Assembly: GCA_903900335.1 (NCBI GenBank)
Contig: CAIUMP010000022.1
Location: forward strand, 62,001 to 126,000
Direction: 5' to 3'
DNA from: an uncultured Ignavibacteriota bacterium
Lineage (GTDB): Bacteria; Bacteroidota; Ignavibacteria; Palsa-1295
DNA length: 64,000 nucleotides
In this document: in pieces, positions 18,344 through 44,080 of the stretch
How the letters are laid out: the number at the start of each line of letters is the position of its first letter
How positions within the stretch are numbered: position 1 is the first letter of the stretch
Program-made: the position numbers and the translations under genes
Notes under the pieces: generated by a model
The model's input: the letters and a program-made list of their open reading frames with translations, nothing else
Databases searched by the model: none
What the model was told of the DNA's origin: nothing

Positions 18344-18722
18344 TAGTTAGAGGCGTTGTATCTCTGCGCTCACAGAATTCTCTACTCCCTGGATTTGACA
18401 GATCCATGAATGACTTGAACCCAAATTCTGGATTTTGCACGAGGTCCGAATAATCTTATTATATTTGATACGATTTCTAGCAAGTCCCACCGCGAATGGT
18501 CGGTCATTCGTGCTTGCGCTTCGATACTTGTTTGCTTTGCCCTGATCGTGTTTGCCATTTCACTCTTGTGAGTTCTGCTCGCTGGAGATTTGACAGCCAT
18601 TGTTGTGGCACCCTAGTAGATGATCGACCATCTAATGTTATTCTCTTTTTCGTGTCAGGATAGTTGCTCGCCCCACGAGTGCTGCTGCCGGACTTTTGCC
18701 AAAGACAAAAATCGTTTTGCCA
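18344..18722. other. Intergenic leader region of the collagen-like gene
   Basis: About 380 bases without a credible gene. The only recognisable element is the promoter-like pair at 18433-18467; if used, it gives a leader of nearly 250 bases. No riboswitch or small-RNA fold is recognised. Confidence 0.5.
18433..18467 (+). promoter_or_regulatory. Putative promoter of the collagen-like surface protein gene
   Basis: TTTTG (18433-18437) and TATATTTG (18460-18467) match the Bacteroidota -33 and -7 boxes with a 22-base spacer, slightly longer than the 19-21 normally seen. Confidence 0.42.
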
Positions 18723-21700
18723 ATGAAAAACCCATTAATGCGTGGTATTCTCACGCTCATATTTGTTTGCATGTACTCGATGAGCATCGTGCAAGCACAA
18801 TCTACAACCGCACCGACTAAACAAGCCCTGCCTCGGATCATATCGTATCAAGGAGCGATAAGTTCGGAGAAAGGAACGGCAGTCCCAGACGGCGAATACC
18901 TTGTGAGGATTCGGTTGTACACGGACCCGTCTGCCGCAACGCCACTCTGGATTGATCAATACAAGGTGCAGGTCACGGGCGGGATCTTTAACGTTATACT
19001 CGGCGCTGGAATTATTCCTTTGCCGTCACTGCAATCTTTGGATCAATCACTGTGGCTTAGTGTCCAGGTCGGTGATGGCCCGGAGCTTCGACCCTTCTCA
19101 CAACTATCGGCGGCTCCCTTCGCGCTGAACGTGGCAGATGGGGCAATTACCAAGGCGAAGATGGGTACGGACTACCTTGGCTCCATTTCCATTAATGGAA
19201 CAAAGGTCAGTGGCCACGGTGCTGATCTGAACCTGGTCTCAGGTCCTGGGATCCAATTCTCTTTCGATCCAGGGACAAATACCGTGATCGTAAATGGCAA
19301 CTCCCCACTGATTCCGGGAAATGGGATGAGTAAAGGTCGAGCTGTAATGTCGGGCTGCGTCCTCGGTGACATGGCGTATGCCGATGAGTACGGATATGCC
19401 ACCCGCTTTGCGTGCAATACCACTACCACGAAGAAGATTTGTACGCAGACCGGTACCGGCTCTGCCGGCTCTTCACCAACCTGGAGTACGATTGACGACG
19501 TTCTCCCCTCACAATCGGGCTGTAGCACGAAGGTCCTGACATCAGACGGTACTTCCTGTGGATGGTCGAATGCGCCGACAGGACCAACCGGTCCTTCCGG
19601 CTGCACAGGTTCGCAAGGTGCGACCGGAGCACACGGTTCAACGGGTGCTCAGGGTGCGACCGGAGCACAGGGACCGACAGGAGCACAAGGCCCGGCTGGT
19701 GCACAAGGTGCTACCGGAGCGCAAGGCCCAGCAGGTGCACAAGGTGCGACGGGTGCACAAGGCCCAGCAGGTGCGCAAGGTGCTACCGGAGCGCAAGGCC
19801 CAGCAGGCGCACAAGGTGCGACGGGTTCACAAGGCCCAGCAGGTGCGCAAGGTGCTACCGGAGCGCAAGGCCCAGCTGGTGCACAAGGTGCTACCGGCGC
19901 GCAAGGCCCAGCAGGCGCACAAGGTGCGACGGGTTCACAAGGCCCAGTAGGTGCGCAAGGTGCTACCGGAGCGCAAGGCCCAGCTGGTGCACAAGGTGCG
20001 ACGGGCGCGCAAGGCCCAGCTGGTGCACAAGGTGCGACGGGCGCGCAAGGCCCAGCTGGTGCACAAGGCGCGACGGGCGCGCAAGGCCCAGCAGGTGCAC
20101 AAGGTGCGACGGGTGCGCAAGGCCCAGCAGGTGCACAAGGTGCGACGGGCGCGCAAGGCCCAGCTGGTGCACAAGGTGCGACGGGCGCGCAGGGCCCAGC
20201 AGGTGCACAAGGTGCGACCGGAGCTCAAGGCCCGACAGGCCCAATGGGACCAACAGGCCCATCAGGTGCCAACGGCCTTGACGGGGCTACAGGTCCCGCA
20301 GGAGCGACAGGACCAGATGGAGCACTGAACGCATGGGCACTTTTGGGTAATGCTGGGACCGTCGCTGGTACGAACTTCCTTGGAACGACGGACAATACTT
20401 CACTCTATCTTGATGTCAATAGCACTCCGACCCTCATCTTTAACACCGACGCCAGCATCCAACGTGACCCTAGTGGAGACGCGCGTGGCGCGGGTGCCGT
20501 TGATTTGCAGATGGATCGCTCTAGCAGTTCCAACGTAGCGAGCGGCCAAGATGCCTTCATCGGTGCAGGCACGAGCAATACCGCTAGTGGATTCGCATCG
20601 GCAGCAATGGGTGCCTATAGCTCCGCTTCCGGATATGCAGCCTTCGTCAGTGGCTATGGTAATACTGCTAGCGGCGATTTCTCAACCAGCATGGGCTCGA
20701 GTACCACCGCAAGCGGCTCCTCGTCAACAGCTATCGGTGTCGGAGCGTCTGCCACAGCATACGGGGCACTTGCGCTCGGAGTTAGCTCGCAGGCCACGGG
20801 TAACTCTTCGACCGCTCTTGGTGTAAGTTCCTTGGCAAGCGGTAGCTACGCGACCGCACTCGGGGTGAGCACGATCGCCAGCGGCGCGGGCTCGACAGCA
20901 CTGGGGGTAAGCGCAACGGCGAGTGGTGCAAATGCCACGGCGCTCGGAACAAGCACACTGGCGTACGGCAATTATTCCACTGCGTTTGGAAATAGCACAA
21001 CTGCTGTTGGTGTGGGCTCCATGTCGATGGGCGTCAGCACGACCGCGTACGGGGCGGCCTCTACAGCAATGGGAAATGGTTCGGTTGCCAACGGAGACTA
21101 TGCGCTTAGCGCCGGGAACAGCAATCTAGCAACGGGCTTTGTCTCCACTGTCTTCGGACAAAATAATACGGCGGCTGGAGACTACAGCTCCATCATCGGT
21201 GGAAATGGCCTAACGCTTTCCGGGAATAACGAACTCGGGTACCTTGCTGGCAATAGCGGTTCGAACGATATGAATGTCAGCGCCTCGAATGTTACATTGC
21301 TTGGTAACAGTGATGTGTGGCTAGCCAACAACGACAACGCAGCACGCGCGCTCTACTTCTATGCACCAAACTCTACGACCGGGGATTTCCCCGCCGGGAC
21401 AAAATACACCGCTTTCAAAGCTGGCTCCCAATCCACAAGTGTAACCTACACGTTGCCAATTGCAGACGGTTCACCAGGACAGGTACTAGCAACGGATGGC
21501 TCTGGTACACTTAGCTGGTCAAGCAACAATATCGGAAGTTACGCGCACGCCGGTTCTGCTGACGCTGGGGTAACTATCAGTAACGTTGCGGTATTCGTGA
21601 TCGATGCGGGAAGCACGACCGGGAATTTCTCCATCTCGCTTCCCTCTGGCATAAACGGGCAAATCCTCTACGTCGTTAATAACGACGCCACCCATGATGC

Positions 21701-21776
21701 CACGAACGCAGCGGGCAACGTGGCACACGGCGGCGCGAAAGCGACATACGTTTTTGGGGGCGGTTCGTGGCACTGA
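18723..21776 (+). CDS. Collagen-like and YadA-head-like surface protein
   Basis: 1017 residues from ATG 18723 (an ATG nine codons upstream is possible). Signal peptide 1-26, ending VQAQ. A beta-rich N-terminal domain (about 35-150, ISYQGAIS) is the type found ahead of fibre-like proteins in this phylum. Gly-X-Y repeats span about residues 284-534, then YadA/Hep_Hag head-like repeats with SxxAxG steps (about 610-830), and a C-terminal section with [18 protein letters not shown]. No YadA membrane anchor or T9SS tail is visible; the end is VFGGGSWH. A trimeric fibre at the cell surface is inferred. Confidence 0.82.
19698..20237 (+). repeat. Fifteen tandem 36-bp repeats encoding a collagen-like tract
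   Basis: Exactly 540 bases, 15 units of 36 bp, each coding a dodecapeptide close to [12 protein letters not shown]. Variation is confined mainly to third codon positions and two Ala-to-Ser changes. Near-identical units suggest recent expansion or homogenisation, and the copy number is probably variable between strains. The wider Gly-X-Y tract runs from about 19574 to 20324. Confidence 0.93.
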
Positions 21777-32269: not shown

Positions 32270-35065
32270 ATGTCTTCCCCCACAAGACATTTTCAAGATC
32301 CGAGAACTATCCAAGTTCGTGAACGCTCAGCTGATCTCGAAACCGGCTCCACCGTTGGCGGCGCTATGAAGATTCAAGAGGCGCTTCCGATGGATGTGCC
32401 GCTCCCAATGATCATATTCGACGCGGTGAGCTTGCGGATTCTGTACGTCAATAAACATGCGTGTGAACTCTATCAATATTCGGAAGATGAATTTCTCGGC
32501 CTGACACTCTCCGATATTCGGCCGGAGGAAAGTAGGGAGAACTTCGTGACGAATGTGGCACCCATCATCGCCGCGAGAGTTGGAGGCCATACCCTGATGA
32601 CTCGCCACATGAAAAAGAACGGCGAGGTAATGGATATTGAGTTATTTACGCAGCAAACCAGATTTGCCGGCGTGCCTGCGAGGGTCATCATGCTTAAGGA
32701 CATGACCCAGCGGATTCGTGAACACACGGAGCTTACCAAGGCCCGCAGTACGCTTCGGTCTGTTCTGGATAGCTCCTTGGCAGGCATAAGCGCTGTAGAC
32801 ACAGAGCATCGCCTGATCGCGTGCAATGCCTTTGTCAGCAATATCATTCGAGAGCATTATGGAGTGGATGTCGTCGAAGGAATGAAACTGCGAGAGTTCC
32901 TACCTGAAGATGTTGGCACATTCTTCCACGAATCCGAAACACGCGCACTTGCTGGCGAGACCTTCACGGCAGAATGGACATTCCACCTGCCCTCCGCAGA
33001 TATGATCGTGGAGTTTTCCTTCTATCCCATGTATGAGGGAAACACGATCAGCGGGGCGTCTTCCTTCGGGAAGGATCTTACTCAAATTCGTAACGCAGAA
33101 GCAGAACAGCGAAAGTTGTTCGATGAAAGCCCAATGCCCATGTGGGTGATCGACACTCATACCCTCAAGTTCCTCCGAGTCAATAAACCAGCGTGTGCCC
33201 TGTATGAATACTCCGAAGCAGAATTTCTTCAGTTGACTCCTTTGGAGTTACGCCAGCCAGCAGACCGCGACGAGTACTATCAGCAGACGATCTCCCAGAT
33301 TCGTCATCTCCCTGATGAAGAGCCGGTGCACACTCGCCACATGAAAAAATCTGGATCTGTGATGGACGTCATTGTCAAACATCACAAGATGATGTTTGAA
33401 GGCCGCGAAGCCAGAATTGCGCTCATTGAAGACATTTCCGAACGGCTGAAGGCTGAGACCGCACTTCGCCTTGCGAACGAGCGTTTTCGACTCGCTACGG
33501 AGGCCGTGAGTTGTGTCATATACGATTGGGATGTCAATTCAGGGTATGTATATAACTCTCCGGGACTGTTGCCGCTCACGGGATTCGATCCCGAGGTCGA
33601 ACCCAACTGCGCTTCCCTTGCCTGGTGGATGGGGCGAATTCACCCCGATGATAAGCAAGAAGCCGCCGCAATAATCGAGCGTGCACTCGCACAGGGTCGG
33701 GAGTTCGAAGCAGAGTACCGAGTGCTTCATAAGCAAGGGCATTACGTGTACGTCTGGGATCGCGGTATCATCTCGCGGGACGAAGCGGGAGTTGCCGTTC
33801 GGGTCGTCGGAAGCACGCAAGACATTACGGCAAGAAAGCGCATGGAAGCTCAACTCGTTGAAGAGCGTAACCATGCACTTACCGCCCAAGAGAGTGCGGA
33901 GGAAATGAGTGTCCTGAAGACCAATTTTTTGGCTAACATGAGTCATGAAATTCGGACTCCGTTGACCGCGATTCTTGGGTTCGCTGAGCTGCTCTCTGCC
34001 AACCCCATCGATCCAGTTCGATCACGACATGCCTCGATCATTCATAGTTCTGCTACGCGCCTTCTTGAGACGATCAATAATATTCTCGACCTTGCTCGCA
34101 CCGAATCACGAAAGATCCTACTCTCGCCAACGGTTGTCTCGATTAATGATGAATTAGAACGACTCGTGGATCTTCTTGAGCCACTCGCGTCTCAGAGGAG
34201 CGTCGGACTCCATTTCATACCTTCTTCGCAGCCAACGGAAGCATTTCTCGATTCGCAGTACCTTAGTCAAATCGTGACGAATCTTCTCGGGAATGCAATC
34301 AAGTTCACACACGAGGGCTTTGTGAATGTGTATTTGCACATGGGAGCCGAGGCGCTGCTCCCGATGACAGAGATTCGAGGATTCCCGGCATACCGAACCT
34401 CCGAAGACCCGCTAGGAGAGCATTTCCGGATCGTGGTGTCCGACACGGGAGTCGGGATCGCCCAGGATCAGCTGTCAATGATCTTCGATGAATTCAAACA
34501 GGAATCCACAGGTTACGATCGTTCGCATGAAGGTAGCGGACTTGGCTTGACCATTAGCAATCGGCTGGTAGCTGCGATGGGTGGAAGCATGGAGGTCCGA
34601 AGCGCGAAGGGCGCTGGCAGCACGTTCATCGTCCGCCTCCCCTACTCGTCCGCGGTCGCCCCAAACGCTACCTTGCCACCAGCTGCGCCAGCTCCGAAGC
34701 GGCGGCTGTTGCTGGTGGAGAACAACCTTGAGACTGCCGAGATGATACGATATATGCTGCGAGCGGAGAATGAGGTCGAACATGCCAGCTCGGCCGGCGC
34801 TGCATTACTAATGCTTGGAAGCGAGCGGCCGGACATGATATTGATGGACGTGAATCTTGGAAGCGGAATGTCGGGGTTAGATCTGACCAGAATTCTGCGA
34901 GGCAAGAAGGAGACAGCAACGATTCCGATCATCGGAATCACAGGATATGCTATGAAGACCGACCAGCGTGCGGTATTGGAAGCTGGTTGCGACGACTACC
35001 TTTCAAAGCCATTCACCCAATCAGAACTGCACTCCGTTGTGGAGAGGAATCTACGCTTAGTTTGA
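32270..35065 (+). CDS. Hybrid sensor histidine kinase with four PAS domains and a receiver
   Basis: 931 residues, no clear membrane segment, so probably cytosolic. PAS domains lie at about 40-145, 160-275, 285-390 and 400-520; the first and third are near-duplicates (both have RVNKPACALYEYSE / YVNKHACELYQYSE and TRHMKKxG). Then HisKA with the phospho-acceptor His559 in MSHEIRTP, HATPase_c with N box LLGNAIKFT, DTGVGIAQDQ and GSGLGLTISN, and a C-terminal receiver with Asp860 (ILMDVNLG) and Lys in YLSKPF. ATG 32366 is an alternative start. No output response regulator gene is adjacent; the receiver suggests phosphorelay. Confidence 0.93.
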   Translation: MSSPTRHFQDPRTIQVRERSADLETGSTVGGAMKIQEALPMDVPLPMIIFDAVSLRILYVNKHACELYQYSEDEFLGLTLSDIRPEESRENFVTNVAPIIAARVGGHTLMTRHMKKNGEVMDIELFTQQTRFAGVPARVIMLKDMTQRIREHTELTKARSTLRSVLDSSLAGISAVDTEHRLIACNAFVSNIIREHYGVDVVEGMKLREFLPEDVGTFFHESETRALAGETFTAEWTFHLPSADMIVEFSFYPMYEGNTISGASSFGKDLTQIRNAEAEQRKLFDESPMPMWVIDTHTLKFLRVNKPACALYEYSEAEFLQLTPLELRQPADRDEYYQQTISQIRHLPDEEPVHTRHMKKSGSVMDVIVKHHKMMFEGREARIALIEDISERLKAETALRLANERFRLATEAVSCVIYDWDVNSGYVYNSPGLLPLTGFDPEVEPNCASLAWWMGRIHPDDKQEAAAIIERALAQGREFEAEYRVLHKQGHYVYVWDRGIISRDEAGVAVRVVGSTQDITARKRMEAQLVEERNHALTAQESAEEMSVLKTNFLANMSHEIRTPLTAILGFAELLSANPIDPVRSRHASIIHSSATRLLETINNILDLARTESRKILLSPTVVSINDELERLVDLLEPLASQRSVGLHFIPSSQPTEAFLDSQYLSQIVTNLLGNAIKFTHEGFVNVYLHMGAEALLPMTEIRGFPAYRTSEDPLGEHFRIVVSDTGVGIAQDQLSMIFDEFKQESTGYDRSHEGSGLGLTISNRLVAAMGGSMEVRSAKGAGSTFIVRLPYSSAVAPNATLPPAAPAPKRRLLLVENNLETAEMIRYMLRAENEVEHASSAGAALLMLGSERPDMILMDVNLGSGMSGLDLTRILRGKKETATIPIIGITGYAMKTDQRAVLEAGCDDYLSKPFTQSELHSVVERNLRLV

Positions 35066-35641
35066 CGAAGAAGTTGTCCCTCTATACAACCGCTTCTGTA
35101 ACTCGATAGCGACATAATGGAAGATAACGGAGTGCACGCTCTCTGAGGTGCACATATCGTTCAGTGGAACGTGAACAGCTGATGCTGCTATCTGTTTCAG
35201 CTTCCCTCCTCCGAACCCCGTCACCCCAACTGTGTGAAGCCCATTCTTGTTAGCCCACTCGATGGCGGTTATCACGTTAGGGCTATTTCCCGATCCAGAG
35301 ATGGCTACGACAATGTCACCGGGCCGCGCGTAGGTGCGAAGCTGCTGTTCGAAGATCGAGGCATAGCCTTCGTCGTTTCCGTATGCCGTCATGAGCGCAA
35401 CGTTGTCCGTCAGCGACATCGCTCGCAACCGTTTTGTTTGGTCCATGGATCGAAGTGTACCCTTGGCCAGATCATTCGCGAAATGGGAGGCGTTCGCAGC
35501 GCTACCACCGTTGCCGATCACAAATACAGTCCGGCCATTCTCATACGCATCGACAAGAAGGTCAAGAAAACTCGAAATCTCAGCTTCATCGAGCGAGGTG
35601 AGCGAATTGTTGAAGTAGCTGAGATATTCGGTAAATGTCAT
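35057..35641 (-). CDS. gmhA: Phosphoheptose isomerase-like SIS protein
   Basis: 194 residues, a single SIS domain. It would isomerise sedoheptulose 7-phosphate to D-glycero-manno-heptose 7-phosphate for LPS core or S-layer glycans. Family features: VIGNGGSAANASHFANDL, MTAYGNDEGY, AISGSGNSPNV, and the C-terminal TSESVHSVIFHYVAIEL with the His typical of GmhA. It ends inside the last nine bases of the convergent histidine kinase gene. ATG 35641 was preferred over 35680. A GT9 heptosyltransferase-like gene lies 5 kb away, which fits the heptose role. Confidence 0.82.
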   Translation of the reverse strand: MTFTEYLSYFNNSLTSLDEAEISSFLDLLVDAYENGRTVFVIGNGGSAANASHFANDLAKGTLRSMDQTKRLRAMSLTDNVALMTAYGNDEGYASIFEQQLRTYARPGDIVVAISGSGNSPNVITAIEWANKNGLHTVGVTGFGGGKLKQIAASAVHVPLNDMCTSESVHSVIFHYVAIELQKRLYRGTTSSSN

Positions 35642-35767
35642 CAAGAATTGGCAATAATCAATGATTGAGGCGTCAGGCACATTCTATTAGCGGCCTAACT
35701 AAGTATGTCTCCCTTTCGGTTCTCCTCACCTCCGTGCGCATTCTAATCGGCCTCGGGGCGGCCGCGG

Positions 35768-36247
35768 TCAGCCTCGACCCTTGCGCACTTTTTCCAACTG
35801 TTCGTGGTGCCGAGCACGCTGAGCAGAGTCCAGCGATTCTTTCTTCTCCCAGGTGCGGGTATCATCGCCCGACTTGAGTGCGACAATGCGCAATAAGTAA
35901 TTGACTCTTCCTTTTGCCTCCGCCGATGCCTCGTGTATCTCATAGGTAAAGGCGAGTTCGTCCTTGACATGATTCGCCAGGAAACAGTCCATTTCCTTCA
36001 CTCCCATCAATCCATTCAAAGACATGCCATAGGCATCCTTAAGGAAACAGCGGTCGGCGTGATCCTTATCGAATTGAATGAACTGCCCATTACTGCTCAC
36101 CGTCTTGATCAGTTTTCCAAGCGAGGAATCACTAACAATTCGATACTCCGAGCTGTGACGCGATCCTTGCATAACGCCATTGAGTGTGCACACGAGAATA
36201 CCTGCGAAGGCAAAGATAACGAGTCGGTTCTCATTGAGCTTCATCAT
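35768..36247 (-). CDS. Small exported or membrane-anchored protein, unassigned
   Basis: 159 residues with an N-terminal hydrophobic segment (8-26, LVIFAFAGILVCTLNGV), then a soluble part containing two cysteines (DRCFLKDAYG, EMDCFLANH) and a charged C-terminal helix. No family is recognised. Its ATG overlaps the TGA of the ABC exporter gene (ATGA), so translation is coupled; a role linked to that exporter is inferred only from this. Confidence 0.65.
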   Translation of the reverse strand: MMKLNENRLVIFAFAGILVCTLNGVMQGSRHSSEYRIVSDSSLGKLIKTVSSNGQFIQFDKDHADRCFLKDAYGMSLNGLMGVKEMDCFLANHVKDELAFTYEIHEASAEAKGRVNYLLRIVALKSGDDTRTWEKKESLDSAQRARHHEQLEKVRKGRG

Positions 36248-38130
36248 GCCGCCTCCAGTGATTCTTCCAGCAGTTGCCGGCGATACAGATCGTAATAGTG
36301 TCCTTCGGCTGCAAGCAATTCCTGATGAGTACCTCGCTCGACGATCTTCCCATGATCAAGCACGATGATCATATCTGCCTCTCGTGCGGTGGAGGTTCGA
36401 TGACTGATCAGGATCGTAGTTCTTCCAGAAGTATTGGACCGGAGATTTGCCAATATTCGTTCTTCTGTCGCGGTGTCCACTGCCGACATCGCGTCGTCGA
36501 AAACAAGGATCCGGGGATTGCGGGCAAGCGCACGAGCGATGGCAGTTCGCTGCTTTTGCCCTCCAGAGAGGGTGATGCCTCGCTCGCCTATCATTGTTTC
36601 GAACTGCTCCGGAAACTCCATCACATTGTCATAGATGTCCGCAGCTTTTGCAGCTTCTTCCGTACCCAACGGGCTGGGTCGGGCCCATCTAGGAAAACCT
36701 TCGATACCTGAGGAGCCACCCAGAAGGTTCTCCGATTCACGCTTCCACGTACCGGAAACTAGAGGCACGTCTTTAAAAGCTCGCTGACCCGATCCCGGAA
36801 TCGAATCATCAACGAACTCTGATGTGCCAAAGGAGATGTTCCCGGAAATGGTCTCGGAAAAGAGGAATGGCTCCTGAGTCACATATCCGATATTCGAGCG
36901 CAACGACTCAAGCGGAATTGTTCTCAGATCATGGCCATCGATCGATATCGAACCTTGCGTTGGGTCGTATAGACGAGCGATCAAATTCACAAGCGAAGTT
37001 TTACCGCTCCCAGTGCGCCCCATGACCGCGACCGTTGTCCCACGTTCAATTCGCAGCGAAATATCTGAAAGTGCCGGCTCCAACTCTGGCCGATAGCGGA
37101 ATGTAACGTCCTTGAAGTTGATCTCTCCCTTAATAGTTGTGATCTTCCAATCTGTGGAATCTGTGTTTTTGATCTCCGGCTCAGTTTCAAAAAGCTTGAT
37201 CAGCCTCGTCATACTCGCAGCGGCCCTCTGCACCATATTGGTTACCCAGCCGAGCGCAATGAATGGCCATGTCAGCATTCCAAGGTACACAAAGAACTGC
37301 GAGAGCTGCCCGATCGAAAGGGTGCCCTTTACGATCATCTCCCCTCCTAGCAGGATCAGAACTACTGTCGAAAGGCCCATAAAAGTGAAGATGATCGGCT
37401 GCATAAGCCCTTGCGTCTTTGCCAGGCGCATGTTCTTATCTCGGTACCCTTTTGTTGCGCGATTGAATACCCCTTGTTCGTATTGCTCACGAACATAGGC
37501 CCTCACGACACGCATACCGGAAATGCTTTCCGTCGTTCTTCCTGTCATATTTGCAAAATGCGCTTGCACTGCATCGAACAAAGGATGCACTCGTTTGCCA
37601 ATCAAGTACACTGCCGTGGACATCAGAGGAAGAGGTAGGATCGCAGAGATGGCAAGTGTTGGGGAGATCGCTACCATGAACCCAAAAGCCGCGACGAAGG
37701 TCGTCAGGGTGTCGGCCGTGTACATGATAGATGGCCCAATGAAGAAGCGGACGGCATCAACATCGTTTGTTGCATAGGCCATGAGCTCTCCGTGGGGTGT
37801 ATTGTTAAAAAAGCGCATGGAGAGTCGCTCAACGTGGGCGAGCAGATCGTTTCGAAGATCATACTCCATCAACCGGCTTGCAACAATGATATTCTGCCGG
37901 ACGAGGTAATAGAAGAATCCGCTTAGGAAGGACAACAGGATGATCAGACCCGCACTCATCATTAGAGACTCGCTGGTCGCTGTTCCCTGAGCTATGCGGT
38001 CTATCCCCCTTCCTAAATACATGGGCCACAGTACCTGGGCAGCCGTCGAAAAAACTACGAGGACGCAGCCCTTCAGGAACATCTTCCTGTAGCGCTTGAA
38101 GTATGGGAGAAGGCGAAGGAGTGATTTCAT
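36244..38130 (-). CDS. MsbA-like ABC exporter with insertion in the nucleotide-binding domain
   Basis: 628-residue half-transporter: six membrane helices (about 20-300) then an ATPase domain. Visible motifs: Walker A GRTGSGKTS, Q-loop YVTQEPFLFSE, signature LSGGQKQR, Walker B ILVFDDAMSAVD and H-loop SHRTS. About 50 residues (near 437-486) are inserted between the Q-loop and the signature, where relatives have only a short link. All catalytic motifs are intact on both sides, so activity is likely kept. Lipid or drug export cannot be separated by sequence. ATG 38130 (MKSLLRLLPYFKRY) was chosen. Confidence 0.9.
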   Translation of the reverse strand: MKSLLRLLPYFKRYRKMFLKGCVLVVFSTAAQVLWPMYLGRGIDRIAQGTATSESLMMSAGLIILLSFLSGFFYYLVRQNIIVASRLMEYDLRNDLLAHVERLSMRFFNNTPHGELMAYATNDVDAVRFFIGPSIMYTADTLTTFVAAFGFMVAISPTLAISAILPLPLMSTAVYLIGKRVHPLFDAVQAHFANMTGRTTESISGMRVVRAYVREQYEQGVFNRATKGYRDKNMRLAKTQGLMQPIIFTFMGLSTVVLILLGGEMIVKGTLSIGQLSQFFVYLGMLTWPFIALGWVTNMVQRAAASMTRLIKLFETEPEIKNTDSTDWKITTIKGEINFKDVTFRYRPELEPALSDISLRIERGTTVAVMGRTGSGKTSLVNLIARLYDPTQGSISIDGHDLRTIPLESLRSNIGYVTQEPFLFSETISGNISFGTSEFVDDSIPGSGQRAFKDVPLVSGTWKRESENLLGGSSGIEGFPRWARPSPLGTEEAAKAADIYDNVMEFPEQFETMIGERGITLSGGQKQRTAIARALARNPRILVFDDAMSAVDTATEERILANLRSNTSGRTTILISHRTSTAREADMIIVLDHGKIVERGTHQELLAAEGHYYDLYRRQLLEESLEAA

Positions 38131-38360
38131 GGTTGGTGCTATGTGAGACACCACCCCGGTGACTCCCGGTTCCCCCGTCCTCGATTCTCGGGAGAATTAA
38201 GCCAGAAGATATTGCCAATTCCTGAATTTTGGACTAATTAAAGTTCACTTTTTTTGGTTTAGCGTCGTCCGTGGCTTTTGGCTAACATGCCGAGAAGAAC
38301 AAGTCACGCGGTGGGAGGCATCTATTGTCCGCAGTCCCACCCATGAACTAACGACAATCT

Positions 38361-40628
38361 ATGCAGGAAGACCTTCAACACGAGAATCTCTCATCCGCGG
38401 CCCCGGGCCAAACAGACCAGCAAGATCTGGCAGTCTCAAATCATTCAGATATTTCGCAATCCCAGACTACCGATAGCGTAAATGAGGGAGAACTCAGCTC
38501 TACTGGAGCTGGGGAGCTTAGTGCTTCACGCGCGCCAGCCGCAACAGCAAGCAGCTACAGAGATATCATTGCCGAGCGCCTAGCTCGCCAAGGACAGCCC
38601 CGCAGCAGCGCTCAATCGCAGGCATCCCGACCGATGGCTCACGCCTCCGACGTAGAGAATTCGCCGAGTCGCCCCACGGCTCCGGTGACCAAGGCAAGCA
38701 AGGCCGCTGGGTCTCCAGAGAGCGAGAGCGGCACCCTTTCCGAAGAAATTGATGCGCAAACCAAGTCGCAGGAAATTTCATCCACAGAGTCAAGTCCAAT
38801 TCAGGAAGCAGGACAAACGGAGTCTGCAGGTCTATCCAGCAGAGAGCGAGCACGCCTGCGCCAGCAGGAGCGTGCCGAGTTGCGTCGCGGCGGCGGTCAG
38901 CGCCGCCCGGCACCGGCCGCGGCCGAGGGTACCGATGATTCGGTCATAGCTGAATCACCCGCGGACGGGTCGCCAATGGCAAAGGCAGAATCCACTGTTT
39001 CGCAACCGAAACCGGAGCTAATCCGAAGGAGCCAGCGCGAAGAGCGCAGCGCTCGTGAAGAAAGAGCCCCAAGAGAAGAACGGGCTGATCGGGAGGAGCG
39101 CACTCCACGCGAAGATCGACAACCGCGTGATGAGCGCCCAGCCCGTGAGCCGCGGCCCGAACGCGAGCCGCGTATCGAGCGTGAACCGCGATCTGAGAGC
39201 GACGCTCGCCCAGAACGTGAAGGTCGCCCAGAACGTGAAGGTCGGCCCGAGCGTGAGCCGCGCGTTGAACGCGAACCGAGACCCGATCGGCCTCAGCGCG
39301 GGGACCGCCCAGCTCGCGGCCCTCGAGAAGATGCACCACTCCAGACGGCAGTTCGCACTCGAGAAGAGCGTCCCCGAGACGCTTCCGAACGACCCCGCGA
39401 TGGGGGGTTGGTAAAGAGATCGGAGATCGGAGCACCGATTCGTAGACCGGATGCAAAGCCCGCGCTTTCCGATTTAAAAGGTGGCGAGCCAAAGCAGACC
39501 GAGCGCGCATCCGAGTCGGCACGCACATTGGCAATGAAGACCGGTATCTCGGTTGTCATTCCGCTCTTTAACGAACAGGATTCACTTCGCGAACTTACTG
39601 CAGCTCTCAAGCAGCAGCTGCTCCGTCTCGCTGGCTCGCGCTATGAGATTCTCTATATTAATGATGGCTCTACGGATCGCTCTGGCGACATCCTCCAGGA
39701 CATCCTTGCGACCAGTTCGCGAGTGACGGCGATAACCTTCCGCCGAAACCAAGGCAAATCCGCTGCGCTTGCGGCGGGATTCGCGGAGGCACAGTATGGC
39801 ATCGTTATTACGATGGATGCTGACCTGCAGGACGATCCTCGCGAATTTTCCAATCTGATTGCCAAACTTGCTGAAGGGTACGATCTTGTAAGCGGCTGGA
39901 AGAAGAAGCGCCACGATCCGATCACCAAGACGCTTCCAAGCAAATTCTTCAATGCTGTAACAGGCATCTTCTCTGGTATTAGCCTCCACGATTTCAATTG
40001 TGGGCTGAAAGCTTATCGCAAGGAAGTGACAGATCGGTTGAATGTCTATGGCGAACTTCACCGCTACCTCCCTGCACTGGCGCACTGGGAAGGATTCCGG
40101 GTAGCGGAGATTCCTGTGGTCCACCATCCGCGCAAATTTGGTAAGTCGAAGTTCGGTTCGAGCCGGTTCTTCAAGGGCTTTCTTGATCTACTGAGCATAG
40201 TCTTTACGAATCGCTACGGCAAGCGGCCGTTGCACTTGTTCGGCACGATCGGCACGCTGCTCTCACTGGTAGGCCTTGGCATTGATGGGTATATCACTGC
40301 CGAATGGGCAATGGGACTGACGGCATTGTCAAACCGCCCGATATTGCAGCTCGGAGTGCTATTGATCTTGGTTGGTGTCCAATTGGTCTCACTGGGTCTC
40401 CTCGGTGAGATGATCGTTAAGAATTCGAATACTCGAGCCAATCTCGCTTACTCGAAGGAGAAGGGTAAACCATCGGCAGAAATGCGCGAGAGACAAGCAT
40501 CACGACGCGCCAACATGGCCGCTGGGGGCCCTCGAACTCCGCGACCAGGCGGACGACAACCTCGTGGACCTCGGCCTGAAGGATCCGCGCCAGCCTCTGG
40601 AGACAGGCGACCGGCCCCCAAGCGATAA
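38361..40628 (+). CDS. GT2 glycosyltransferase with a 390-residue disordered charged N-terminus
   Basis: 755 residues. Residues 1-390 are low-complexity: first Ser/Gln/Glu-rich, then an Arg-Glu-Pro repeat zone (about 222-340) with steps like REPRPEREPR. From Met392 comes a GT2 catalytic domain (SVVIPLFNEQDSL, INDGSTDRS, DADLQDDP, FNCGLKAYR) and two membrane helices near 640 and 680, the DpgS/polyprenyl-phosphate glycosyltransferase layout, and a basic Pro/Arg tail. The normal family length is about 320-350, so this is an added N-terminal extension. No ribosome-binding site precedes Met392. The GT9 gene follows after 20 bases. Confidence 0.88.
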   Translation: MQEDLQHENLSSAAPGQTDQQDLAVSNHSDISQSQTTDSVNEGELSSTGAGELSASRAPAATASSYRDIIAERLARQGQPRSSAQSQASRPMAHASDVENSPSRPTAPVTKASKAAGSPESESGTLSEEIDAQTKSQEISSTESSPIQEAGQTESAGLSSRERARLRQQERAELRRGGGQRRPAPAAAEGTDDSVIAESPADGSPMAKAESTVSQPKPELIRRSQREERSAREERAPREERADREERTPREDRQPRDERPAREPRPEREPRIEREPRSESDARPEREGRPEREGRPEREPRVEREPRPDRPQRGDRPARGPREDAPLQTAVRTREERPRDASERPRDGGLVKRSEIGAPIRRPDAKPALSDLKGGEPKQTERASESARTLAMKTGISVVIPLFNEQDSLRELTAALKQQLLRLAGSRYEILYINDGSTDRSGDILQDILATSSRVTAITFRRNQGKSAALAAGFAEAQYGIVITMDADLQDDPREFSNLIAKLAEGYDLVSGWKKKRHDPITKTLPSKFFNAVTGIFSGISLHDFNCGLKAYRKEVTDRLNVYGELHRYLPALAHWEGFRVAEIPVVHHPRKFGKSKFGSSRFFKGFLDLLSIVFTNRYGKRPLHLFGTIGTLLSLVGLGIDGYITAEWAMGLTALSNRPILQLGVLLILVGVQLVSLGLLGEMIVKNSNTRANLAYSKEKGKPSAEMRERQASRRANMAAGGPRTPRPGGRQPRGPRPEGSAPASGDRRPAPKR

Positions 40629-40648
40629 GGAGAAGCAGGTTCCAGACG

Positions 40649-41797
40649 ATGCACAACTCACTCATATATCATTCGGATTGCCGCTACTTCCGTGGTGACA
40701 TTCCTTGCGCACCGAACAAGCGGGAGGGTGTCCACTGCGACGGCTGCTCTCACTACGATGCCATCACCGAGAACATCCTCGTGATCAAGCTCGGGGCTGC
40801 TGGGGACGTTCTGCGAACAACTCCGATTCTCACCCCGCTTCGTAAGGAGCATCCTCACGCCAGGATTTGGTGGTTGACGCACTCGCCAGATCTCGTTCCG
40901 AAATCCCATGTGGACCGCGTCCTCAAATGGAATTCGGAAAGTCTGGAAACGCTACATGCGATCCAGTTCTCGCGTTTGATCAATCTTGACAAGGATCACT
41001 ACGCATGCGCGCTTGCTTCGCGGCTTACAGCGGAAAGGAAGGACGGCTTTTTACTCGGAAAATTTGGAGAGTCCGAGCCAGCCAATGATCTAGCAAGGGC
41101 AAAATTCCTGACAGGCATTTTCGACGACGTCAGCCTAGCAAACCATCTTGAATTCACCACCGAGCTGTTCGCCATTTGTGGTTATGAATGCGCTGGCGAA
41201 GAGTACATCCTCGACACTCCAAGAGCACTCGAATTTGCCGCGCTGGATCGCTCGCGACCCCTTGCCGGACTCAACACAGGTGCGGGTGCGCGTTGGACTT
41301 CACGTCTCTGGCCTGTAGAACGCTGGGCCGAACTTGCCGAATCCATACTCGACTCCGGCCGAAACGTCATCCTACTGGGAGGACCTGACGAGGAAGAGCG
41401 CAACCGCGAAATCCACGAACGGACCCACGGGCGTGCACAATATCTTGGTTACTTTCCTCTCTCGGAGTTCATCGCACTCGTGGACAATTGTGAACTGATC
41501 GTTTCCGGAGTGACGATGGGTATGCATATCGCGATGGCTCTTCGCAAGAAGCTCGTACTTATGAACAATATCTTCAACCCGTATGAGTTTGGGGATCTGT
41601 ATGGGTTAGGCGAGATCGTGCAACCAAACAAGCAGTGCACCTGCTTCTTCCGCGGGCATTGCATTAACCCGGATTATTTCTGCCTTGACGACCTGCCAGT
41701 CTCGAAGATGTTCGCCGCCGTCGAGCGTGTCTGGAATACTCCGCGCGGACAAATGCAGCAAGAGCCGCTGGTCGTGCCCGGAATGATACTCTCCTAG
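40649..41797 (+). CDS. Glycosyltransferase family 9 (heptosyltransferase-like)
   Basis: 382 residues. The GT9 core runs from about 42 (ENILVIKLGAAGDVLRTTPI) to the end, with GLNTGAGARWTSRLWP and the donor-site stretch ILLGGPDEEE and SGVTMGMHIAMALRK. Ahead of it is a short extension with four cysteines in CRYFRGDIPC and HCDGCSHY; further cysteines (CTCFFRGHC, YFCLDD) occur near the end, so the two ends could share a metal or disulphides. Family members add ADP-heptose or related sugars to LPS core. Probably co-transcribed with the GT2 gene. Confidence 0.86.
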   Translation: MHNSLIYHSDCRYFRGDIPCAPNKREGVHCDGCSHYDAITENILVIKLGAAGDVLRTTPILTPLRKEHPHARIWWLTHSPDLVPKSHVDRVLKWNSESLETLHAIQFSRLINLDKDHYACALASRLTAERKDGFLLGKFGESEPANDLARAKFLTGIFDDVSLANHLEFTTELFAICGYECAGEEYILDTPRALEFAALDRSRPLAGLNTGAGARWTSRLWPVERWAELAESILDSGRNVILLGGPDEEERNREIHERTHGRAQYLGYFPLSEFIALVDNCELIVSGVTMGMHIAMALRKKLVLMNNIFNPYEFGDLYGLGEIVQPNKQCTCFFRGHCINPDYFCLDDLPVSKMFAAVERVWNTPRGQMQQEPLVVPGMILS

Positions 41798-41834
41798 GGC
41801 TTGACAATAAGCCATCGGTACAACTGCCTGATTG

Positions 41835-42077
41835 CTAAATCGGCTTGCGAGCTTGCTCCTGCTCCACCCGCAATTTGACAGCCAGGCCGATCTTCACCAA
41901 TAGAAAGCCCGCCCAGCCAACGAGCCAGAGTGTGAAAAGGATTGGAGAGCGCATGAAGCTCGCAACGAGAAGCGTACCAAAAAAGAGTAGAATACCGCGC
42001 AGCGGCACATGCTTGAGTTTTTCTCGCGGGTGAACTCGCGGCGCTTCGGACGCAGGCTGTGATTCAGGTAGATCCAT
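41835..42077 (-). CDS. Small two-helix membrane protein, unassigned
   Basis: 80 residues. A basic N-terminal section (HPREKLKHVPLRG) precedes two hydrophobic segments, about 28-43 (ILLFFGTLLVASFM) and 46-65 (PILFTLWLVGWAGFLLVKIG), then a charged tail. No family is recognised. It lies between the convergent GT9 gene and the T9SS array, and a terminator sits upstream of it on the same strand. Confidence 0.5.
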   Translation of the reverse strand: MDLPESQPASEAPRVHPREKLKHVPLRGILLFFGTLLVASFMRSPILFTLWLVGWAGFLLVKIGLAVKLRVEQEQARKPI

Positions 42078-42087
42078 ACTGACGCAA

Positions 42088-42117
42088 AAGAGGGAATGAC
42101 CTAAATCATTCCCTCTT
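42088..42117 (-). terminator. Terminator at the end of the ASST-like array
   Basis: AAGAGGGAATGA pairs perfectly with TCATTCCCTCTT; on the minus strand TTTTGCG follows. It ends transcription of the gene that stops at 42154. Confidence 0.82.
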
Positions 42118-42153
42118 GGTCAATTTCAATTCTGCTCGGCCGTTCTGCTTACA

Positions 42154-43959
42154 TCAATGAACTACTGTAAAAGGCACAGTACTGCTCGCCTGGGACGTTC
42201 GTAGAACGCAGTAATACATTCCGTTCGGAAACGTCGATGTTGGGATACTCACCTTCTGCGACGAACCAGTGCTCCTCCCTGCAAAGACTTGTTCGATCTG
42301 CCGGCCTAACATGTCGCGAAGCACTATTGAGACTTCGCTTGTGGCAGCGGTGGAAAACGTTACTGCATATCTATCTGCATTTTCATCAATAGAGCAGCTC
42401 AACAGACCACCAGCAGTGGTCGGACCCGAGGTGGCTACGGATGCCGTGCCTGAAGCAGCAGAGGGATACTTCAGCGTTCGGTAGGAGAAGACAGGCAAGA
42501 AGCTCTCCGCTGTCATTTCAAATAAAAGGCTGTCATCGGGCGTGACCTCACTTGAAATAAGGCTTAGCATATTTCCTACGGAGTCGCTCGTGGAGTTTTG
42601 TCCCCAACCAATGAAGGTATTGCCATTCGGGAGCCTTTGGACAGACCCCATGGAGGAAGCCCACACCGGCGGCTCATGACGATGCTGCCACACCAACCAT
42701 GCCTGCATTTTCTGCTCATCAATGACGTATTCCACGGCTCGACTCTCCGGTTTCGGATTCACGCCATTAGTACCCCGAAAATTACCATTGTCAAAAAGCG
42801 TCATGTGGCCATGTGGGAGCCAACGGGCATCATGCTGATAGCTGAACCCCAGCGAATCATTAGGAAATTGGAACTGGTTGTGTAGGCCTCCGAGTCGCCA
42901 GATGATCGCCCCTGTCTTCCCGTCGATCTTGGTGATCTCACTCAAATTTCTGTTCGACAATAGGTAGTTGCCAAGTGAATCAATCTCGATCGAATTCGAA
43001 TGTTGGAAGTCAATTTGGTGTGTGGATAGATCCTCGTGATTCGCATCAAGAATGCTATAATGATCTATTCCTCGCCACTCGAAGACGAGCGCATCGGACG
43101 CATCAAAATGTTGAATCACATTACTCAGAACCGTCGAAGCCGAATCTCCACCCGAGACCATTTGTCGCATATCTCGTTTCGTCCTGAGCGTGCCGATCAA
43201 CGTATAACTTCCATCGGGGGAAATGAGTAACTCGTGTAGATCCGTTTGTGCTCCGTTCGCACACCCATAGACTCGCACCTGTTGAAAATTCGTATCGACC
43301 GCAATAAACTTGGCGATCAAGCCATCAAAATACGTCCAAAGTCCGTTGGGTTGTTTCTGAAAATCCATTGCCTGCGCTTGGAAGGTCTTCTGGACGAGCC
43401 CGTCCTGATCCAAAACGACCAGGTCACTGAACTGAGGGTTGCCATACGTCGCCAGAAATATCTTCCCGGGCGTTGGGTTGTTGTCAACGGTGACTGTGAA
43501 AGTCGGCAACTCCTGCGCCGAGCCTACTGTAGCACACTTGATTCCAGCGGACTCATCAACCGACTGCATGCTTTCCGTTGTGAATGCAAAAGTATCCCGA
43601 GCCGTGGAGCCCCCTAGCAATCGCACGGACAACCGCACCTGGACACGTTCGCCGAAACTAAATGGGAGGGTTGGATGAAATACTATTGTATTCCGATCCA
43701 ACGACAAGGTAGTTACACCAGCATGTAGACCTGAGAGAGAACCAATCACGTCATAATCGGCATGGGATAGAAAGGCCGGATCAAAGCTCACCGGACTTGT
43801 CACGCCAATAGCCGTAACTCGAGAAACTTCAGTAGCACCTGCCATCGGATACCTCCTGACCACAGAGAAACCCGTGCCCGAACCGGCGGTCGCTGTCCTC
43901 AGCCCAGCGAAGGCCGTCATCGCTAGGACGAAAATTAATACGAGCGTCCGTGACTTCAT
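42154..43959 (-). CDS. T9SS-exported arylsulfotransferase-like protein, paralogue 1
   Basis: 601 residues, signal peptide 1-25. Big_5/SbsA Ig-like domain at about 30-140 (VRRYPMAGATEVSRVTAIGV). The ASST-type propeller (about 165-500, PF14269-like) has HSNSIEIDSLGNYLLSNRN, KIDGKTGAIIWRLGG, YQHDARWLPHGHMTLFDNG and GSVQRLPNGNTFIGWG. The last 75 residues are a T9SS type A sorting tail (IVLRDMLGRQIEQ, FPNGMYYCVL). It would be secreted or surface-bound; sulfate transfer is only a family inference and the characterised ASSTs are distant. Last gene of the array. Confidence 0.87.
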   Translation of the reverse strand: MKSRTLVLIFVLAMTAFAGLRTATAGSGTGFSVVRRYPMAGATEVSRVTAIGVTSPVSFDPAFLSHADYDVIGSLSGLHAGVTTLSLDRNTIVFHPTLPFSFGERVQVRLSVRLLGGSTARDTFAFTTESMQSVDESAGIKCATVGSAQELPTFTVTVDNNPTPGKIFLATYGNPQFSDLVVLDQDGLVQKTFQAQAMDFQKQPNGLWTYFDGLIAKFIAVDTNFQQVRVYGCANGAQTDLHELLISPDGSYTLIGTLRTKRDMRQMVSGGDSASTVLSNVIQHFDASDALVFEWRGIDHYSILDANHEDLSTHQIDFQHSNSIEIDSLGNYLLSNRNLSEITKIDGKTGAIIWRLGGLHNQFQFPNDSLGFSYQHDARWLPHGHMTLFDNGNFRGTNGVNPKPESRAVEYVIDEQKMQAWLVWQHRHEPPVWASSMGSVQRLPNGNTFIGWGQNSTSDSVGNMLSLISSEVTPDDSLLFEMTAESFLPVFSYRTLKYPSAASGTASVATSGPTTAGGLLSCSIDENADRYAVTFSTAATSEVSIVLRDMLGRQIEQVFAGRSTGSSQKVSIPTSTFPNGMYYCVLRTSQASSTVPFTVVH

Positions 43960-44080
43960 CGTGAGAATTCTAAGGTGCACAGTATCACTGCGCCACCGAA
44001 AGGCTCTACAACGAATTGCAACGCTTGAATTTACTGCCCTTTGACCCACCCGGTGTACAATCATAATTCAGGAAGAATGC

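Follow-up and report, generated by a model that had tools for sequence, protein, structure and literature searches.

A disordered N-terminal arm with a candidate docking motif on an ArnC/GtrB-fold glycosyltransferase from Ignavibacteriota

The gene at positions 38361–40628 (+) of the window (the whole 64,000-nucleotide stretch of DNA that was analyzed) encodes, stop codon included in these coordinates, a 755-residue protein in which a long N-terminal arm precedes an ArnC/GtrB-like GT2 glycosyltransferase and a basic C-terminal tail. The enzyme is of a known kind; new are the conserved arm and the motif that it carries. Across family f1 the arm is fast-evolving and variable in length, yet present in every gene read, and a conserved arm with a near-invariant motif suggests a tether that grips a partner rather than junk. 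The reading that we prefer, at somewhat less than an even chance, is that the disordered arm, with its motif for docking, serves as a tether, is laid out much like RNase E and recruits a cytosolic partner to the enzyme; the comparison behind it shows the arm as translated and, outside the motif, free to vary. Solved polyprenyl-phosphate glycosyltransferases show the compact enzyme only, and the present gene offers a clear case of a docking-motif candidate conserved, in a bacterial membrane enzyme, inside a disordered region that otherwise changes fast. A search of the open-licence literature returned no paper on the arm, which is weak evidence of novelty.

The reading frame and its translation

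The first-pass annotation had proposed an extension of about 390 disordered residues in front of a catalytic part complete from Met392, and this extension is real: the frame runs from ATG to stop, and the 391 codons ahead of Met392 (residues 1–391, 38361–39533, +) are open and low-complexity, with pLDDT below 50 across most of the arm. Given the base composition of the stretch, the probability of 391 stop-free codons is about 1.4e-5; each of the other five frames across the arm holds 6–18 stops. Family f1 comprises 13 genomes, so that the conservation described here is shallow; the enzyme is found in 12 of them, the genome without the gene being 67% complete. The gene studied here comes from a Kapaibacteria-like MAG, and one f1 member (L038) belongs to Candidatus Kapaibacterium sp. 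Chersky.7_45, which among the named records of the genome collection is the nearest. All 11 f1 genes readable from start to core (including G003, whose catalytic domain is interrupted by a scaffold gap) have an arm, of 206–391 residues. The G006 gene is split between two contigs, and its N-terminal part carries the same motifs and is open to the fetched end. The homologue search proposed earlier thus found the arm in relatives that keep the same downstream GT9 gene, at 11/11 loci, and on sequence comparison the arm is old within f1.

Translation from Met392 (39534–39536, +) had been named as one outcome that would overturn the extension, and we consider such a misread start, with the arm left untranslated or made as a separate product, highly improbable. 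Met392 does lie just ahead of the first beta strand, where the solved relatives begin, but within f1 the column holds Met in only 2 of the 11 aligned genomes and Ser, Thr or Asn in the other 9; no in-frame ATG, GTG or TTG occurs within 120 codons upstream of the core in G001, G002 and G010, and we rejected this start on both grounds. The initiator Met of the arm, on the other hand, is aligned in all 11 genomes, and codon-position bias and motif conservation extend along the arm. Differences in the arm are commonest at the third codon position in 8/8 genome pairs (for example, 75/70/188 at positions 1/2/3 between G001 and G002), and this excess, together with synonymous-only variation at seven of the nine motif codons, supports translation of the arm as judged from sequence. 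Arm dN/dS is 0.09, 0.21 and 0.23 in the three computable pairs, against 0.02–0.07 for the core where computable, all of these values being rough because dS is near saturation. Possible starts lie no more than 30 codons from the core in G005, G007, G008, G011 and G012, and a GTG lies 25 codons away in G004, so these six genomes may also make a second, shorter product. In several class homologues (5' ends of the type of L048, L065, L078, L087 and L129) the codon directly following the stop is TTG, and TTG starts may therefore be common for this glycosyltransferase gene.

Composition and predicted structure of the arm

The arm had been characterized throughout as an Arg-Glu-Pro repeat of mixed charge, a description that fits about one-third of it: residues 221–345 (39021–39395, +) form an Arg/Glu/Pro polyampholyte repeat that is 60% charged, with 16% Pro and a net charge of +3, and make up a length-variable spacer between motif and enzyme, whereas residues 1–160 are rich in Ser, Thr, Ala, Gln and Glu and net acidic. 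A local basic block, net +4, covers residues 161–180. Tandem Repeats Finder over 37000–42500 gave three weak rows, the best being an 18-bp array of 2.8 copies (39206–39256, +), a sign of recent slippage; since the rows are few and weak, the R/E/P repeat is degenerate. No Pfam family matches the arm, and no RNA-binding domain was found in that search. AlphaFold gives pLDDT below 50 for 322 of the 755 residues, and going by the listed segments all but 18 of these (residues 738–755) are in the arm. Arm helices are predicted at residues 63–77, 129–135, 160–176, 218–233 and 378–394, and in the L038 model a motif helix at 61–72, a basic helix at 139–162 and a pre-core helix at 301–318, in both cases from alignments that cover the arm with only two rows. 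The basic/charged helix SRERARLRQQERAELRR (residues 160–176, 38838–38888, +; pLDDT block 88), repeated in the L038 model, is conserved at genus level, and the alignment has Arg/Asp-rich stretches at that place in other genera. The helix that runs into the catalytic domain (residues 378–394, 39492–39542, +), predicted in both models, has a sequence like [SQ]RA.[AS]LA[ST] in most f1 members.

The R/E/P tract appears to be particular to this gene. A protein search of its own genome returned no other tract of the kind, the matches being the tract itself, its antisense and an off-frame reading of the collagen-like gene, and two DNA patterns for the tract gave 14 hits against 18 for the control and 32 against 28, the clustered hits lying in the glycosyltransferase gene. 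A genome-wide habit was rejected on these at- or near-control counts, which refer to searches for that tract arrangement. Uniqueness of the tract by these searches speaks for the tether, as does the presence of long charged arms outside f1 in two genomes of a second family, f22.

A composition of this kind could also belong to an Arg-rich tail that binds RNA or ribosomes, or forms condensates, thereby concentrating the enzyme, or its mRNA, at the membrane and leaving the motif a secondary part. The arms contain 9–18% Arg and R/E repeats; Arg/Tyr clusters recur in short tails elsewhere, for example in seven f22 genomes; and the non-catalytic region of RNase E is described (PMC4435900) as long and disordered, with an Arg bias and REE repeats, as binding RNA, and as bearing microdomains whose partners are the membrane, RNA and proteins. 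We nevertheless think this explanation unlikely, given that the f1 arms are close to neutral in charge (net –10 to +1) and contain only 2–6 Phe, Trp, Tyr or His residues, that their strongest conservation is in an acidic/hydrophobic/basic 9-mer and not in an Arg block, and that Pfam finds no RNA-binding domain in the arm. For the tether, the likeness to RNase E is one of putative working only: both are membrane-associated enzymes with a biased, disordered region that has repeats and a conserved microdomain, which is the layout expected of a scaffold, and partner binding by the arm is proposed by analogy. The two enzymes are unrelated, the arm here is N-terminal, and the only Pfam domain of the protein is PF00535, the RNase E/G domain being missing.

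A near-invariant motif within the arm

The strongest conservation in the arm is a motif that the first-pass annotation had not mentioned, RD[IV]IAER[LM]A, here RDIIAERLA at residues 67–75 (38559–38585, +), a docking-motif candidate that occurs in 12/12 f1 genes and lies in the predicted helix 63–77. Among 177 well-filled arm columns 12 are invariant, and 7 of these fall in the one 9-column window of the motif, a clustering reached by 0 of 10,000 column shuffles. All nine motif codons vary, seven of them synonymously only, the two replacements being a Val for Ile (G010) and a Met for Leu (G007). Between motif and core lie 166 to 320 residues in 11 genomes, and four of the 12 genes (G003, G004, G005 and G006) have a second, weaker motif-like copy further on. 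The motif helix is predicted amid surroundings of pLDDT below 50 in two proteins, with a modest pLDDT of its own (65–72, and 52–66 in L038). Its hydrophobic moment is reached by 76–87% of shuffles, so a membrane-binding amphipathic helix was rejected, and a specific docking site fits better than a membrane anchor.

Within the loci and genomes compared, the motif is confined to this gene family. It was absent from the N-terminal frames of all 122 homologous loci outside f1 (119 distinct genes, with two frames cut by the locus end), and a pattern search allowing one mismatch over the 13 f1 genomes gave 20 sites, of which 13 were exact. All 13 exact sites and one one-mismatch site (the second copy in G005) are at glycosyltransferase genes; the other six differ by one base. 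Sharing of the motif with other proteins of the f1 genomes was rejected on this result, and no shared docking code is visible, because the exact motif occurs only in the glycosyltransferase gene. A similar RDIIEER in an open frame of contig C7 of the same genome was not accepted as a relative.

The conservation also bears on the view that the arm is mostly a passenger, that is, tolerated low complexity born of slippage and with no selected role except perhaps in solubility or expression. The weak tandem array with its fresh copies and the 206–391 residue spread of arm lengths are in keeping with such an origin, and repeated elongation in f22 could mean that the N-terminus is simply permissive. 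The motif is nevertheless kept in 12/12 genes through synonymous change, every f1 gene read has the arm, and in the three computable pairs arm dN/dS stays far below 1; we rate the passenger view as rather unlikely.

The catalytic core and the C-terminal part

The enzyme part is complete and ordinary, as seen from its Pfam domain, its match to the ArnC/GtrB fold and its invariant DxD. The Glycos_transf_2 domain (PF00535, 104 bits) covers residues 397–558 (39549–40034, +), and the DxD metal site D486-A-D488 (39816–39824, +), whose role is described for GtrB in PMC4728340, has both Asp invariant in 46/46 aligned sequences. Two C-terminal membrane helices, residues 623–650 and 660–689 (40227–40427, +), are predicted from the AlphaFold model and the fold alignment, and the predicted helices 600–619, 623–650 and 660–689 align with ArnC and GtrB up to residue 690–704. 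The protein thus has the GT-A GT2 domain with DxD of its fold class and, by prediction, a juxtamembrane region followed by the two C-terminal membrane helices. By analogy it is probably a polyprenyl-phosphate glycosyltransferase of the ArnC/GtrB/DPMS fold, for which sugar transfer to polyprenyl phosphate and a tetramer are predicted.

Comparison with ArnC, the undecaprenyl-phosphate 4-deoxy-4-formamido-L-arabinose transferase (PDB 9bhe, 9asc, 8vxh and 9hwj), gave sequence E values of 7e-47 to 2.6e-46, and 9bhe matched the AlphaFold model with a Foldseek E of 2e-24 and a Z of 25.8 over 289 residues (rmsd 5.1, 32% identity). For the polyisoprenyl-phosphate glucosyltransferase GtrB (PDB 5ekp and 9nyd), which shares the GT-A domain, the juxtamembrane region and two transmembrane helices at the C-terminal end, Z was 23.5 to 9nyd over 282 residues. 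NCBIfam places ArnC and PgfS nearest, both well under cut-off; the score of 173 bits against the curated cut-off of 529 for the ArnC equivalog (PRK10714) implies, by this test, a substrate other than that of ArnC.

The claim that the arm is unusual on such an enzyme is borne out among solved structures: the ArnC chains, of 307–327 residues (363 with tags in 8vxh), have no long N-terminal arm, and solved ArnC and GtrB match the model only from about residue 379 onward, the structure-alignment list (VIA-align) spanning residues 379–695. GtrB, according to PMC4728340, has its catalytic domain right at the N-terminus and a short hairpin at the other end, whereas the enzyme described here is extended at both ends. 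Its C-terminal tail (residues 690–755, 40428–40625, +), correctly called basic in the first pass, is Arg/Pro-rich and found in f1 only. Where the claim of unusualness needs narrowing is within the class, in which shorter tails are widespread.

Tails and independent arms across the class

The enzyme is encoded in 187/197 class genomes. N-terminal tails were surveyed at 78 of 80 loci, leaving out L038 (an f1 member) and L103 (cut at the start), and counted as Arg/Lys-rich if at least 20 residues long with at least 6 Arg or Lys in 15; starts were set at the first ATG, else GTG or TTG, a rule that tends to overstate tails. On this definition such a tail occurs at 23/37 loci from records named Ignavibacteria, Kapaibacteria, Chlorobi or Kryptonia, at 6/15 named only Bacteroidetes or Bacteroidota and at 1/26 with other names. 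Outside f1 the tail is usually short, mostly 20–130 residues, rich in Arg and Lys (and in some cases Tyr) and placed directly before the catalytic domain. The orthologous GT2 enzymes of Ignavibacteria and Kapaibacteria are the same enzyme with short, basic tails lacking RDIIAERLA, and GT9 lies inside the fetched stretch at 17 of 37 loci outside f1.

The position of these tails would suit binding of anionic membrane lipid, or gathering of undecaprenyl phosphate near the active site, with the element stretched in f1. Consistent with this, the short basic tails at 23/37 named in-class loci directly precede the catalytic domain, the arm has its basic block at residues 161–180 (net +4), and the active site of GtrB is placed about 15 A from the membrane and relies on basic juxtamembrane residues (PMC4728340). 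Whole f1 arms are neutral to acidic, though, the amphipathicity of the motif is not above chance, and a spacer of 166–320 residues would be superfluous for a lipid role, all of which makes this explanation, in our estimate, quite unlikely.

Long arms are not exclusive to f1. Of the nine f22 genomes examined, seven have Arg/Tyr clusters in short tails; in the other two, G148 and G182, the arms are long and charged, contain R/E or R/D repeats and measure up to about 427 residues (L159) and up to about 217 residues (L157), respectively. The recurring Arg/Tyr cluster, of the type RRYY..RRR.Y, stands immediately before the catalytic domain in L172–L178. In a tree of 50 cores f1 and f22 each form a single group with 100/100 support and short-tailed families lie in between, and by this comparison long arms arose at least twice; G148 and G182 are not sisters within f22, where branch support is limited. 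The remaining class genomes were screened by open-frame length alone, among the matches listed. Long open frames in G173 and G096 (L156 and L158) are not low-complexity arms and were judged chance frames, and L090, L075 and L102 were likewise dismissed, L102 reading as a fused epimerase-like frame. Neither the f22 arms nor the short class-wide tails contain RDIIAERLA, so that any general role of the tail would be independent of the motif. This recurrent growth of a charged tail on one orthologue makes it testable whether selection keeps the physical tail or the motif. A paralogous GT2 in the same genome as the gene studied here (L002, C7:72739–76602) has a frame that runs on for about 350 residues, acetyltransferase-like by eye.

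A tether and a possible assembly hub

In the tether that we favor, a long, disordered and presumably cytosolic arm would stand at the N-terminus of an ArnC/GtrB-fold glycosyltransferase; its motif would dock on a cytosolic partner and, in doing so, fold into a short helix, and its R/E/P stretch would act as an extended, charge-balanced spacer. Because enzymes of this fold are tetrameric, as known for GtrB (PMC4728340), the arms would be multivalent and could form a hub at the inner membrane face, carrying the partner, which might be the neighboring GT9 or a donor-sugar enzyme, to the site of lipid-linked sugar synthesis. Such a layout would do for a sugar enzyme what the non-catalytic region with its microdomains does for RNase E. 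Against the tether speak the small size of f1, at 13 genomes, the modest pLDDT of the motif helix with only two alignment rows over the arm, the motif search, which yielded no partner protein, and the motif-free tails and arms outside f1. More tentatively, and with doubts that outweigh our confidence, we propose a lineage-specific hub for glycan assembly in this Kapaibacteria family: a membrane-anchored scaffold whose multivalent disordered arms would collect cytosolic envelope-glycan enzymes through the helix-forming RDIIAERLA, a sugar counterpart of the RNase E degradosome derived by lengthening of the class-wide basic tail, with similar charged arms arising separately in another family. As a bait peptide, the near-invariant 9-mer gives a handle on how lipid-linked sugar synthesis is organized at the membrane.

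Gene neighborhood

The setting of the gene suggests envelope glycan or LPS synthesis. The heptosyltransferase-like GT9 gene (PF01075; 40649–41797, +) is the downstream neighbor kept at 11/11 f1 loci. Its N-terminus (40649–40790) has a conserved Cys-rich stretch, C..FRGDIPC.PNK..GV.C..C..Y, resembling a small metal-binding knuckle, which occurs also in L040, L120, L125 and L126. A SIS-domain, GmhA-like gene (35057–35680) lies near the glycosyltransferase gene. Upstream, a divergent ABC transporter gene (36244–38154, –) adjoins it at 3/11 f1 loci, all of one genus; the nucleotide-binding domain of the transporter contains, ahead of the AAKAAD helix, a length-variable insertion of about 40–50 residues that is shorter in G004 and almost missing in G001 and G002. 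Further downstream, 42154–44064 (–) encodes an arylsulfotransferase-like protein (PF14269) with a weak, below-cut-off match to a C-terminal secretion tail (PF18962). Elsewhere in the window, the gene at 18696–21776 (+) encodes about 20 collagen-like G-A-Q repeats and, after them, YadA-head repeats (PF01391 and PF05658), a trimeric-adhesin-like fiber outside Proteobacteria.
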